Assembly: GCA_021324045.1 (NCBI GenBank)
Contig: JAJPJV010000006.1
Span: 1-59,638, forward strand
Origin: Actinomycetota bacterium
GTDB lineage: Bacteria > Actinomycetota > Acidimicrobiia > Acidimicrobiales > RAAP-2
DNA: 59,638 nucleotides
Reading direction: 5' to 3'
In this document: piece by piece, positions 52,566 through 58,229 of the stretch
Layout: the number at the start of each line of letters is the position of its first letter
Numbering within the stretch: position 1 is the stretch's first letter
Notes under the pieces: model-generated
Told to the model about the DNA's origin: nothing
The model's input: the letters and a program-made list of their open reading frames with translations, nothing else
Databases searched by the model: none
Program-made: the position numbers and the translations under genes

Positions 52566-52805
52566 TCAACTCTCGAGCACGTCTCCGAGCAGGGACACCT
52601 CGATGCCTTGCGAACGCAACCAGGAGAGCCCCGCTTCGATCGCATCGGACCTCCCGTCGAGCTCGCAGATGATCCAGCCGCGGTGCTCCTCCACGTCGGC
52701 CCGCCGGATGTTGGGCTCCACGTCGAAGGTCCGCACCAGCCGTGCGAGCACCGGCGTGCGGACCAGGTCCTCTGGGAAGGTGAGCTTCACCCGGACCTTG
52801 GTCAC
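52566..52805 (-). CDS. NIL-domain protein
   Basis: A 79-residue stand-alone NIL domain: 'VRVKLTFPEDLVRTPVLARL', 'DVEPNIRRADVEEHRGWIIC' and SDAIEAGLSWLRSQGIEVSLL are the family pattern (beta-alpha-beta-beta-alpha-beta, like ACT). NIL domains occur at the end of methionine-ABC ATPases and in homocysteine-forming proteins. The GTG at 52805 overlaps the larE stop (GTGA), so it is the last gene of a coupled hemQ-larE-NIL unit. A metabolite-binding or sulfur-transfer helper role is inference. Confidence 0.8.
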   Translation of the reverse strand: MTKVRVKLTFPEDLVRTPVLARLVRTFDVEPNIRRADVEEHRGWIICELDGRSDAIEAGLSWLRSQGIEVSLLGDVLES

Positions 52806-53614
52806 CGATCGGCTGCCTGGGGAATCAGCGCATTGAGGCTGCCGGAACGAAAGCCCTCCAGGTCGAGGCAGACGTAGCCGTAGCCGGCACGCTTCAGTGC
52901 GCCGACCACCTCACGACGGAGCGCGACCGCACGCGCGAGCTCGTGTTCCTCGACCTCCACCCGCGCAACACTGCCATGGTGGCGCACCCGTGTCTGGCGG
53001 AACCCCAGACGCCGGAGCGCGGCCTCCGCCGTCGCCACCGACCGCAGCGCACCCAGGGTCACCGGGGTCCCGTAGGGGATGCGCGAGGACAGACACGCCG
53101 CCGCGGGCTTGTCCCAGGTCCGCAAACCCAACCGTCGTGACCACTCCCGGACGTCGGCCTTCGAGAACCCCGCGGAGACCAGCGGGAAGACCGCTCCCTC
53201 CTCGAGCGCCACGCGCTGGCCCGGCCGATAGTCACCGAGATCGTCGAGGTTGACGCCAAGGGCAATCGCCGCCCCCTCGGCCTCGGCGAACGGACCCAGT
53301 GCACCCATGAGCGCGCGCTTGCAGCGGGCGCATCGATCAGCACCGTTGGCGCGATAGCGAGGATCCTCCATCTCCGCACTGGGGACCCCGAGCCAGCGCA
53401 GCCCCCACTCCGCAGCCAGCTGCCGACAGTCGTCAGCTTCCTCGGGGGCCAGCGACGGCGAGAAGGCGGTCACGGAGAGGACGCGATCGGCTCCGAGGCA
53501 GTCGGTCGCCACCTTTGCGAGGAAGGCCGAGTCGGCGCCTCCGCTGAAGGCCACGACCACCCGGCCGAGGCGCTCCAGCTCGGTGTGGAGGGTGGACAGC
53601 GAGGCCGGGCTCAA
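52802..53614 (-). CDS. larE: LarE: ATP-dependent sulfur transferase for the nickel-pincer cofactor
   Basis: A 270-residue PP-loop protein. The N-terminal loop VVAFSGGADSAFLAKVA, ADRCARCKRALM and PAAACLSSRIPYG are standard LarE. The Cys of ACLSSR is at the place of the sacrificial cysteine whose sulfur goes into the cofactor in Lactiplantibacillus. It is therefore probably the single-Cys sacrificial type, though the two extra Cys of CARC deserve attention. The TTG at 53614 overlaps the hemQ stop (TTGA). It is separated from larBC by 3 kb, with no larA in the window. Confidence 0.92.
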   Translation of the reverse strand: MSPASLSTLHTELERLGRVVVAFSGGADSAFLAKVATDCLGADRVLSVTAFSPSLAPEEADDCRQLAAEWGLRWLGVPSAEMEDPRYRANGADRCARCKRALMGALGPFAEAEGAAIALGVNLDDLGDYRPGQRVALEEGAVFPLVSAGFSKADVREWSRRLGLRTWDKPAAACLSSRIPYGTPVTLGALRSVATAEAALRRLGFRQTRVRHHGSVARVEVEEHELARAVALRREVVGALKRAGYGYVCLDLEGFRSGSLNALIPQAADR

Positions 53615-54309
53615 CGGGCGGCCCCGCGCTCGAGTACCTCGTCGAGCGCTCCGACGATGCCCGTGTAAAAGGGCCCGAACTCCGCGAAACGAGCCGAGGC
53701 TTCGTCGAAACGCATGCGATACACGCACTCTTTGAGATCCTCGGGCCTGGTGGCGAACAGCGTCACCCCCCATTCCCAGTCGTCGAGGCCGGTTGAGCCC
53801 GTGACGAGCTGGAGCACCCGCCCCCGAAACGATCGCCCCACTCCGCCATGGCTGCGCATCAGCGACTCGCGGGCGCCATAGGGAAGGCGGTACCAGTTGT
53901 CGGTTCCCGAGCGCCGCTTGGACATCGGGTAGAAGCAGAACGCCCGTTTGCCCTCAGGGGGAAGCGACGGGTACAGGCGCGCGTGTTTGAGCTCCTCAGG
54001 AACGCCGGAGGCATACTCGGAGACCTCCGTCAGCGACACATAGGACCAGGTCGGGTCGAGCCCCGCCCGGACGACCTCGGTCTGGAAGCGGCGAAGCTCC
54101 CACAGGTCGGGCCCCAGCACCATGAAGCCCACGTCCGCCTTGTGCCCGAGCAGCGCGACCGTGACGACCGTCAGGCCGGCCTTCCGGGCTGCGTGCTCGG
54201 CCTGTTCGAGCGCGGGCACGTCAACCGTCGCGCGTGATCGGCAGAACAGGTGCAGGACCCCCAAGCCGATGGCAGGGGAGAGCGGTTCGTGGCCGTCGGT
54301 GGAGGGCAC
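53611..54309 (-). CDS. hemQ: Chlorite dismutase-fold coproheme decarboxylase (HemQ/ChdC)
   Basis: A 232-residue protein from the GTG at 54309. 'FCFYPMSKRRSGTDNWYRLP' and SLMRSHGGVGRSF hold the family Tyr/Lys and the axial histidine (HG). 'GSTGLDDWEWGVTLFATRPE' and 'VYRMRFDEASARFAEFGPFY' complete the fold. In actinobacteria this enzyme makes haem b from coproheme and not perchlorate-linked chlorite reduction. It heads a coupled unit with larE and the NIL protein, an unusual grouping. Confidence 0.9.
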   Translation of the reverse strand: MPSTDGHEPLSPAIGLGVLHLFCRSRATVDVPALEQAEHAARKAGLTVVTVALLGHKADVGFMVLGPDLWELRRFQTEVVRAGLDPTWSYVSLTEVSEYASGVPEELKHARLYPSLPPEGKRAFCFYPMSKRRSGTDNWYRLPYGARESLMRSHGGVGRSFRGRVLQLVTGSTGLDDWEWGVTLFATRPEDLKECVYRMRFDEASARFAEFGPFYTGIVGALDEVLERGAAR

Positions 54310-54475: not shown

Positions 54476-56164
<1,689 letters not shown>

Positions 56165-56358: not shown

Positions 56359-56634
56359 TCAGCCCCCGGCGACCGCGGGCACGATCGAAACGACCTGACC
56401 CGGCCGGATCGGGGTGTCGAGACCCTCGAGGAACCGGACGTCCTCGTCAGCGACGAAGACGTTCACGAAGCGCCGCAGTGCGCCGTCTTCGTCGAGCAGG
56501 CGCTCAGCCATCCCCGGGTGCGCCTCGTCAAGGGCCTTGATGATCCCGCCCACGGTCTCGCCGTCGACTTCGACCTCGCCAACGCCTCCGGTCAAGCTCC
56601 GCAGCTGCGTCGGCACCCGAACGGTCACCCTCAC
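56359..56634 (-). CDS. MoaD/ThiS-like ubiquitin-fold sulfur carrier
   Basis: A 91-residue beta-grasp protein ending AVAGG, the Gly-Gly tail that is adenylated and thiocarboxylated in MoaD, ThiS and CysO. 'RFVNVFVADEDVRFLEGLDT' and 'RPGQVVSIVPAVAGG' match the family end. The GTG at 56634 overlaps the thrC stop (GTGA). No activating E1-like enzyme or molybdopterin or thiamin gene is nearby. Coupling to a PLP enzyme recalls mycobacterial CysO-CysM, so a sulfur-transfer role with the threonine-synthase-like protein is plausible but unproven. Confidence 0.88.
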   Translation of the reverse strand: MRVTVRVPTQLRSLTGGVGEVEVDGETVGGIIKALDEAHPGMAERLLDEDGALRRFVNVFVADEDVRFLEGLDTPIRPGQVVSIVPAVAGG

Positions 56635-57899
56635 TCCACATGCTCCTCTCCGGGGATCAAGCTCCCCGCCTCGTCGATCACCGAGCGCTCGAAGGATTGC
56701 AGCGTCGGATCGATGGTGGCCGACGGCCCGCACGCACCGGCCAATGCCTCCACGGTTTTGAGGCCGTGACCGGTGACGAGGACGACGACGCGCTCGTCGG
56801 AACGGATCACGCCTCGGGCGGCGAGGGCAGCGAGTGCCGCAATCGTCACGCCTCCCGCGGTCTCGGTGAAGATGCCCTCGGTCCTCGCCAGGAGCTTGAT
56901 CCCCTCGAGGATCTCCTCGTCGCTCACCGCCGCGAAGGCGCCTCCGCTCTGGCGGACCGCTTGCAACGCGTACCACCCGTCCGCGGGGTTCCCGATCGCC
57001 AGGGACTTGGCGATGGTGGAAGGCCGGACGGGGCGGATGGCATCGGTGCCCTCGGCGAATGCCGTCGCGACCGGCGCGCACCCCGCGGCCTGGGCCCCCG
57101 AGACCCGGACCCGAGGAACCTCGGGCAAGAGCCCGACCAGGCCGAGCTCCTCGAACCCCTTTGCGACCTTGGTCAACTGGCTGCCGGAGGCCACGGGCAC
57201 CACGACGTGGTCCGGCGCGCTCCATCCGAGTTGCTCGGCGATCTCGAACGCCAAGGTCTTCGAGCCTTCTGCGTAATAGGTGCGAATGTTGACGTTGACG
57301 AACGCCCACAACGGATGTTCGCTCGCCAGTTCAGCACAGAGGCGATTGACGTCGTCGTAGCTCCCGCGCACAGCGACGACCACGCCCCCGTACACCGCCG
57401 TCATGGTCACCTTGGCCTGTTCGAGGTCCTCGGGGATCAGCACCACCGACGCCATCCCCGCGCGTGCCGCGTGGGCCGCGACCGCGTTGGCGAGGTTGCC
57501 CGTCGACGCACAGGCTGCGACCTTGAACCCCAGCTGCCGTGCCTTGGTCAGTGCGACGGAGACGACCCGGTCCTTGAACGACCCGGTGGGGTTCACCGTG
57601 TCGTTCTTGATGTAGAGCTCCCCGAGCCCCAGCTCCGCCGCAAGCCGATCGGCTCGGGTGAGCGGCGTGAACCCGGCACCGAGGTCCACGGGCACGACGT
57701 CGTCGACGGGGAGCAAGTCGTGGTAACGCCAGATCGACCGCGGCCCTCTCGCAATGGCCTCGCGGCTCACCGACGCCGCGATCCGTTCGTAGTCGTAGAC
57801 GACCTCAAGCGGGCCGAAACAGAAGTCGCAGACATGAAGGGCCTGCGCTGGGTAGGAACGCCCGCACTCCCGGCAGCGCAGGCCACTCACATGCTCCAT
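56631..57899 (-). CDS. thrC: Threonine synthase (PLP, with N-terminal zinc ribbon)
   Basis: A 422-residue PLP enzyme of fold type II. The N-terminal zinc ribbon has C9-x2-C12 and C24-x2-C27. The Schiff-base lysine is K109 in NPTGSFKDR, and 'ACASTGNLANAVAAHAARAG' is the phosphate-binding region. 'VPVASGSQLTKVAKGFEELG' and VTGHGLKTVEALAG follow as in threonine synthases. It should make threonine from O-phosphohomoserine. The ATG at 57899 has AAGGA five bases upstream. It overlaps the MoaD-like gene, which leaves open a sulfur-linked role. Confidence 0.88.
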   Translation of the reverse strand: MEHVSGLRCRECGRSYPAQALHVCDFCFGPLEVVYDYERIAASVSREAIARGPRSIWRYHDLLPVDDVVPVDLGAGFTPLTRADRLAAELGLGELYIKNDTVNPTGSFKDRVVSVALTKARQLGFKVAACASTGNLANAVAAHAARAGMASVVLIPEDLEQAKVTMTAVYGGVVVAVRGSYDDVNRLCAELASEHPLWAFVNVNIRTYYAEGSKTLAFEIAEQLGWSAPDHVVVPVASGSQLTKVAKGFEELGLVGLLPEVPRVRVSGAQAAGCAPVATAFAEGTDAIRPVRPSTIAKSLAIGNPADGWYALQAVRQSGGAFAAVSDEEILEGIKLLARTEGIFTETAGGVTIAALAALAARGVIRSDERVVVLVTGHGLKTVEALAGACGPSATIDPTLQSFERSVIDEAGSLIPGEEHVE

Positions 57900-58229
57900 G
57901 AAGATCCTTTCATCGGTCGGGCATTGGCACCTGGTGCCGGCACCCCCGAAGCGAGCGCTCCCCGCTCCAACGGGTCGGCACTGGTTGCCGCGGCGTCTCA
58001 GGGCCCGTCCCTCGGCCGCTCTGGATGAAGCACCATTATCGTAGGGCGAAGGACCAGGTCCCCGTCAACGTCATCGCCGGGCACTGGGCCGGGCCGCTCA
58101 CCGTCCACCACGGACAGCGAGCGCGGAGCCGAGGACGAAGAACCCGAATCGTGGACCTGGAAGGACGATGCCCACCGATCCGGGTACGCACCCGGGACCT
58201 CCGGCTACCGGAGGGGAGCCGAGGATGTC

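Follow-up and report, generated by a model that had tools for sequence, protein, structure and literature searches.

In Wolinella, the carrier HcyS and MetY, a pyridoxal phosphate (PLP) enzyme of the PF01053 kind that uses acetylhomoserine, turn carrier-bound sulfur into homocysteine. In the system that Hasebe et al. reportedly described in 2024, metO lies downstream of metM, and thiocarboxylated MetO together with MetM turns O-phosphohomoserine into homocysteine. Streptomyces MetM is a homocysteine synthase of a new kind, and S. albulus metM has an S-adenosylmethionine (SAM) riboswitch and prevents methionine auxotrophy (PMC12172450). A cyanobacterial carrier gene resembles S. albulus metO, and MetM homologues occur in cyanobacteria (PMC12172450). 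In mycobacteria, MoeZR loads sulfur onto the carriers CysO and MoaD (PMC3227635). Here we describe an enzyme–carrier pair in a stretch of 59,638 nucleotides (the window), contig JAJPJV010000006.1 of assembly GCA_021324045.1, from an actinomycetotal bacterium of the Acidimicrobiales. The pair very probably represents MetM–MetO, in which a homocysteine synthase works with its dedicated sulfur carrier under SAM-switched control.

The system as such is already known, and the pair matches MetM–MetO of Streptomyces. Both combine a threonine synthase homologue with an adjoining carrier, a SAM riboswitch of metM and an O-phosphohomoserine route, which for the window pair is a proposal; the likeness is drawn from these features. 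Possible differences from Streptomyces are an aptamer that abuts the start codon, the lack of any other searched homocysteine route in the genome, and a NIL-domain gene 3.8 kb downstream of metM. With CysO–CysM–Mec of M. tuberculosis the pair shares a dedicated Gly-Gly carrier of the ThiS fold and, as proposed here, E1 activation and a PLP partner using a phosphorylated amino acid (PMC3227635). It differs in that the window carrier groups apart, the PLP enzyme is of the threonine synthase type, and a separate Mec–CysO–CysM cluster is encoded elsewhere in the genome. Less expected were the link of a NIL-domain protein to the pair and the pair as a candidate for a homocysteine gap of the Acidimicrobium type.

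The probable metM–metO locus and the homocysteine routes of its host

The metM-like gene (56631..57899, minus strand) encodes a 422 amino acid (aa) fold-type-II PLP enzyme, a threonine synthase homologue with an N-terminal CxxC...CxxC, proposed as homocysteine synthase from profile matches, signature residues and co-occurrence. The metO-like gene (56359..56634, minus strand) encodes a 91 aa sulfur carrier of the ThiS/MoaD fold with a Gly-Gly C-terminus, assigned by PF02597 and a carrier tree. Its product scores 55.7 bits on PF02597 ThiS (cut-off 22.5) and has an AVAGG C-terminus. The original prediction, made from the letters alone, had seen a threonine synthase gene overlapping the gene of a Gly-Gly carrier. 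Coordinates and both open reading frames (ORFs) proved correct: the GTG start of metO overlaps the metM stop as GTGA, and the carrier frame ends in VSIVPAVAGG before its stop codon.

A feature absent from that prediction is a SAM riboswitch aptamer (S box, RF00162) in the metM leader (57907..58031, minus strand). The covariance model matched with 57.9 bits (gathering score 44.4, E 7.8e-11), and seven bases separate the aptamer from the metM ATG. Folding of the leader by energy alone was unremarkable (z -0.6); the riboswitch assignment rests on the covariance model. The last aptamer helix stops where the metM ribosome-binding site begins. Since the helix ends in or next to this purine-rich site, SAM binding is predicted to hide it. 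At most 11 bases lie between aptamer and start codon in the window and, among 28 further measured riboswitch loci, in seven (L097, L098, L104, L107, L110, L150 and L044), with the L044 aptamer overlapping the start by four bases. The gap is 14 bases in L049 and L115, which have the same leader and are probably one record, and about 50 or more in most other loci. RF00162 precedes the enzyme in 18 of 30 loci of the phylum (own included) and in two of seven further loci with shorter flanks. It also does so in 9 of 16 scanned loci among 80 named loci, which are the best 80 of at least 588 matching stretches and not a random sample, and which partly coincide with the phylum genomes (G100:C34 and L155). 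All four scanned loci with a carrier and without the enzyme lacked the riboswitch. Control by SAM fits a role in methionine, not in threonine, synthesis.

The host genome (2.75 Mb, 52 contigs, 96% complete; the window is contig C49) was searched for the remaining homocysteine routes. Profile searches found no MetX, MetA or DUF39/HcyBio (PF01837), and the DUF39 route was discarded for this absence of PF01837. An intact PF01053 enzyme is likewise missing, which distinguishes the host from Wolinella with its HcyS–MetY; the profile matched no more than two fragments, both below its cut-off (best E 1.4e-5). Among the routes searched for, MetM–MetO is probably the only homocysteine route of the organism. 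Homoserine kinase (thrB, 187 bits, over the cut-off) and cobalamin-dependent methionine synthase (metH) are present. A second thrC with the usual motifs lies on contig C7 beside a homoserine-dehydrogenase-like (hom-like) ORF.

The original prediction had noted that no E1 is encoded at the locus and had proposed to look for the activating enzyme in the rest of the genome. The first point holds: neither of the two PF00899 matches of the genome is on C49, one being on C14 and the other on C10. The C14 match is a MoeB/ThiF-type E1. An ORF read from its translation as rhodanese-like lies directly upstream of the C14 E1 in the same frame, and a Mec–CysO–CysM cluster was found on C40. There are five ThiS-family matches in the genome. 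Two are the window carrier and CysO, a third adjoins a thiO-like ORF on C9 and a fourth a moaA-like ORF on C14 (thiO-like and moaA-like being readings of translations), and the fifth is a sulfite reductase fusion. A molybdopterin or thiamin role of the window carrier was rejected, as other ThiS-family members stand beside the moaA-like and thiO-like ORFs instead. The neighbours read around metO (metM, groEL, hemQ-like, larE-like and NIL) include no moa or thi gene; MoaE and the thiamin families were not searched as such. The fusion is a sulfite reductase (PF01077, PF03460) with a C-terminal ThiS-fold domain ending in SGGGC (G000:C14:81544-81813; L005 1492-3252, minus strand). It adjoins an ORF read from its translation as cysH-like. 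The fusion itself tethers a carrier to a sulfide-making enzyme.

Distribution of enzyme and carrier across the phylum

The co-occurrence survey covered 149 genomes of the phylum, the host among them. Matches of the enzyme and of PF01053 were counted at 1e-40, those of MetX at 1e-20, and those of MetA and HcyBio at 0.001. MetX was called by E-value; every match, controls too, stayed below the TIGR01392 cut-off of 500 bits. Relatives of the enzyme formed two sets with a bit-score gap from 423 to 263, and the upper set, MetM, comprised 54 genomes of 19 family groups. In 38 of these 54 genomes, from 15 family-level groups, a carrier gene was adjacent by coordinates, a count that would miss carriers too diverged for E 0.001. 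The enzyme–carrier pairing is far above chance. MetX, MetA and HcyBio were all absent from 38/54 genomes with the enzyme vs 10/95 without it (Fisher p 7e-14, a value that overstates independence, since the genomes are related). Counted by family, 14 of the 19 have at least one MetM genome without the three, and in 12 all MetM members lack them. HcyBio was found in none of the 54. There is thus strong, although not independent, evidence from these related genomes that the enzyme replaces the usual homoserine-activating routes.

Ten enzyme-bearing genomes lack PF01053. Nine of them have the adjacent carrier, and all ten are without MetX, MetA and HcyBio. Genome incompleteness as the whole reason for the absences in the host was rejected on these grounds, G117 being a single contig. 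MetH was found in five of the ten (G000, G010, G036, G097 and G117). A thrB match over the cut-off is present in seven, and G010 has one of 148 bits under the cut-off.

The carriers themselves fall apart by partner enzyme. Second carriers fetched from enzyme-bearing genomes (n = 20) were CysO-like and beside CysM in 19 cases, with Mec in 15. In MetM genomes without an adjacent carrier (n = 16), 16 of 18 stretches had CysM, E1 and/or Mec around other carriers, and MetM of carrier-less loci may for this reason borrow another carrier. A tree was computed from 79 chosen carriers: 38 from 40 MetM loci, 20 and 13 of the CysM type (the latter from 13 of the 18 stretches) and 8 from genomes without MetM. 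All 33 CysM-linked rows formed one group (support 91/96), apart from the 38 MetM-linked and the 8 MetM-less carriers. The tree is rough, with 91 columns, a support just under the tool's star, a bootstrap that had not settled and two changes instead of one needed for the MetM-linked carriers. In pairwise comparison, three MetM-linked carriers (L065, L206 and L207) are slightly closer to the CysO of the host than to its MetO. The window carrier lies outside the 33-row group and is thus of the MetO, not the CysO, kind. Neither CysM nor Mec stands beside it; its neighbours are metM and groEL. The CysO of the host (L001 1429-1773) ends in AVAGGATS, and many CysM-linked carriers (L217-L251) extend beyond Gly-Gly. 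Such tails should have to be trimmed off before the carriers can act, perhaps by the adjacent Mec protease.

Eight genomes of the same order (G031, G066, G088, G099, G110, G119, G129 and G139) have a MetO-like carrier and no MetM match at 1e-40. In the tree their carriers cluster together, apart from the CysO group. The carrier-only loci (L015, L020, L021, L024, L026, L029, L040 and L255) are mostly beside groEL, and all eight genomes have MetX and PF01053.

Proposed pathway and the threonine synthase alternative

The original prediction had suggested that homocysteine might be made from O-phosphohomoserine and a carrier thiocarboxylate. At the level of genes and sequence this is well supported by the SAM riboswitch, the absence of the other routes searched for in a genome that does have thrB, metH, a second thrC and an E1, the replacement of MetX, MetA and HcyBio across the phylum, and a cassette of E1, JAMM protease and CysM in loci of the Nitrospirota type. 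In the proposed pathway, ThrB, whose gene is present, would phosphorylate homoserine. A MoeB/MoeZ-type E1 encoded elsewhere would adenylate the Gly-Gly end of MetO, and addition of sulfur would give the thiocarboxylate, as suggested by the genes present and by the MoeZR–CysO pair of Mycobacterium. On the PLP of MetM, O-phosphohomoserine would lose its phosphate, and the thiocarboxylate would attack C-gamma, instead of water attacking C-beta. The adduct of carrier and homocysteine would then have to be released, a step for which the Mec-type JAMM protease encoded with CysO and CysM is a candidate, and MetH, for which the gene is present, would methylate the homocysteine. With plentiful SAM the aptamer found in the leader would fold, its last helix presumably covering the metM ribosome-binding site. 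Threonine would be made by the other thrC, the one beside the hom-like gene.

MetM and ThrC share the fold-type-II PLP fold and the NPTxSFKDR lysine motif, and O-phosphohomoserine is the proposed substrate of both. Profiles do not separate them: for the window enzyme, TIGR00260 thrC gives 300.5 bits (cut-off 167.1) and NF006050 gives 305.6 (cut-off 303). In NCBIfam, MetM carries the name threonine synthase, and MetO and CysO alike are labelled SAMP1 ubiquitin-like modifier (window 56359-57899; L215 11797-12138). With such names, pathway tools may wrongly predict methionine auxotrophy. The residues do differ. We compared 11 MetM rows with one ThrC row and two PDB alignments, and R206, Y209, K244, C274, L136 and GGV (349-351) were fixed in 11/11 MetM rows, where the ThrC of the genome has N, R, S, A, T and S-A-A. 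Altogether, MetM departs from the canonical ThrC residues at six positions and one motif, and Ala stands at the C274 position in two solved threonine synthases. The ThrC Arg replaced by Y209 helps to hold the substrate phosphate, and the Arg three residues before Y209 may take over this contact. The differing residues are candidates for a putative change of chemistry, in which sulfur would attack C-gamma in place of water at C-beta.

Several observations weigh against a homocysteine synthase. In threonine synthase the nucleophile goes to C-beta, and an attack at C-gamma needs an active site rewired relative to that chemistry. At 96% completeness of the host, single gene absences could be gaps. 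Twelve of the 30 phylum loci gave no riboswitch match. Among the 54 enzyme-bearing genomes, 16 also have MetX (13) or MetA (3), 16 have no adjacent carrier, and PF01053 is not more commonly absent with the enzyme (10/54) than without it (30/95). A MetH domain was not found in five of the ten PF01053-less genomes (MetE was not searched), and in two of the ten, G064 and G029, thrB matches are only weak. Two loci of family f14 (L068 and L069) have the enzyme without its own carrier, beside an ilvD-like gene and with no riboswitch match; a third f14 locus, L070, has a different neighbour. Finally, a Microcystis homologue encoded beside a carrier gene, which shares 51.6% identity with S. albulus MetM, converted O-phosphohomoserine to threonine in vitro, in an assay apparently run without the carrier (PMC12172450). 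With sulfide it gave only an unidentified peak, and the authors judged it not fully functional as MetM in cells (PMC12172450).

These points bear on the possibility that the window enzyme is a second ordinary threonine synthase (or synthase/deaminase) under SAM control, with the carrier serving another pathway. The scores above the NCBIfam threonine synthase cut-offs, the ilvD-like neighbour in family f14 and the combined synthase and deaminase activity of the Microcystis homologue in vitro (PMC12172450) all agree with it. In 4 of the 54 enzyme-bearing genomes no further match at 1e-40 exists, and there the enzyme could be the threonine synthase. We nevertheless regard this explanation as improbable. 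A further match is present in the other 50 genomes, and in the host a canonical thrC stands beside the hom-like gene. The residues fixed in all MetM rows differ from ThrC, the riboswitch suits methionine rather than threonine, and a plain threonine synthase would leave the genome without any searched homocysteine route. Addition of the thiocarboxylate at C-beta, giving beta-methylcysteine (3-mercapto-2-aminobutyrate) for some other purpose, would be in line with established threonine synthase chemistry. This product leaves both the SAM riboswitch and the replacement of MetX, MetA and HcyBio unexplained, and the published MetM is a homocysteine synthase (PMC12172450); we give it hardly any chance.

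Loci in other phyla and the NIL-domain protein

The named loci come from Acidimicrobiia, other Actinomycetota, Chloroflexota, Nitrospirota, Nitrospinota, Aquificota, Cyanobacteria, Omnitrophota and one contig named Acidobacteria. Within these best 80 of at least 588 stretches, the closest matches to the window enzyme are Acidimicrobiaceae contigs with 81-83% identity. Because the flanks extend only 4 kb, little can be concluded from a missing neighbour. A carrier match lies 3' of the enzyme or overlaps its end in 75/80 loci by manual count of carrier matches (L124 partial, at a contig end); an automatic flag gave 64/81, with some carriers in long open frames or one gene further. No carrier match was found in L123, L125, L136, L156 and L175. 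An E1 lies within the cluster in 12 loci. Nine of the 80 (L122, L127, L132, L140, L141, L142, L145, L151 and L159) have the order CysM, E1, MetM, MetO, NIL, E1, Mec. Cassette genes were named by their best match to the proteins of the host genome, and Pfam confirmed NIL, ThiF and Prok-JAB in L132, the one tested. An E1, a JAMM protease and two PLP enzymes are the requirements of a protein-thiocarboxylate pathway.

This clustering in distant phyla, together with the separation of carriers by partner enzyme, fits a sulfur donor. It speaks against a carrier that is a regulatory or protein-tagging ubiquitin-like subunit, with sulfide or another thiol as the true donor. We consider such a subunit very unlikely, even with the SAMP1 small-modifier label of NCBIfam and the 16 enzyme-bearing genomes without an adjacent carrier in its favour. 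The alternative of the original prediction, a carrier that merely regulates the enzyme, is conceivable but not needed.

Price et al. 2018 reported no recognisable homocysteine pathway in Acidimicrobium ferrooxidans, Aquifex aeolicus and Pyrolobus fumarii (PMC5764234). Acidithrix ferrooxidans (L110, Acidimicrobiaceae) has the enzyme, the carrier and the riboswitch. Two Aquificaceae contigs (L129 and L152) have enzyme and carrier, and contigs titled Aquifex aeolicus (L125) and Hydrogenobacter (L136) have the enzyme and no carrier nearby. MetM–MetO is thus a candidate for the published gap in relatives of Acidimicrobium ferrooxidans and Aquifex aeolicus. As relatives of these first two organisms carry the enzyme, the gap is testable gene by gene.

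The NIL gene of the window (52566..52805, minus strand), 3.8 kb downstream of metM, encodes a protein of 79 aa that matches only PF09383 (65 bits) and is a possible further component. NIL homologues were found in 24 of the 80 named loci, and in 22 the distance to the enzyme is about 1 kb or less. NIL lies between MetM and MetO in six loci (L117, L121, L124, L137, L162 and L165), after MetO in loci of the Nitrospirota type, after MetM in L175, and directly beside the pair also in Chloroflexota. In an Omnitrophota contig (L134, 3041-3472) it is fused to the MetO C-terminus and cut by the contig end. An Acidimicrobiia-like order of metM, metO, groEL, hemQ, larE and NIL occurs, with variations, in the window, G016, G077 and G010. 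NIL was not seen in the other MetM stretches compared for synteny, and the link is not phylum-wide. It was also not found in G099 and G129 (one family), which keep carrier, groEL, hemQ and larE, have lost MetM, and have MetX and PF01053.

A NIL-domain protein accompanies the DUF39 (HcyBio)/NIL-ferredoxin/COG2122 route as well (PMC5764234). That route is unlike the one proposed here, with HcyBio missing from the host and the other enzyme-bearing genomes and with a short window protein that has the NIL domain only. A longer NIL protein (ORFs of 135-144 aa), presumably the NIL-ferredoxin, stands beside HcyBio in L075-L077. We tentatively suggest, as a possibility with somewhat less than even chances, that NIL is a dedicated third component of MetM–MetO and marks two otherwise unrelated homocysteine routes. 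It might bind homocysteine or methionine and, as a subunit, either regulate the insertion of sulfur or help in it. Among open-licence papers, none linking NIL proteins to MetM–MetO was found.

In the window, the order of transcription is riboswitch, metM, metO, groEL, HemQ-like (chlorite-dismutase fold), LarE-like sulfur transferase and NIL. The groEL gene (54476..56104, minus strand, assigned by profile matches) is a frequent neighbour 3' of metO, with a GroEL match in 24 of 81 enzyme loci, and is not proposed as a pathway member. The LarE-like sulfur transferase gene (52802-53773, minus strand; TIGR00268, 291 bits) adjoins the NIL gene. A plasmid collection contained one relative of the enzyme at 1e-60, from Nonomuraea and unannotated there, with a carrier and a GroEL match in its locus.

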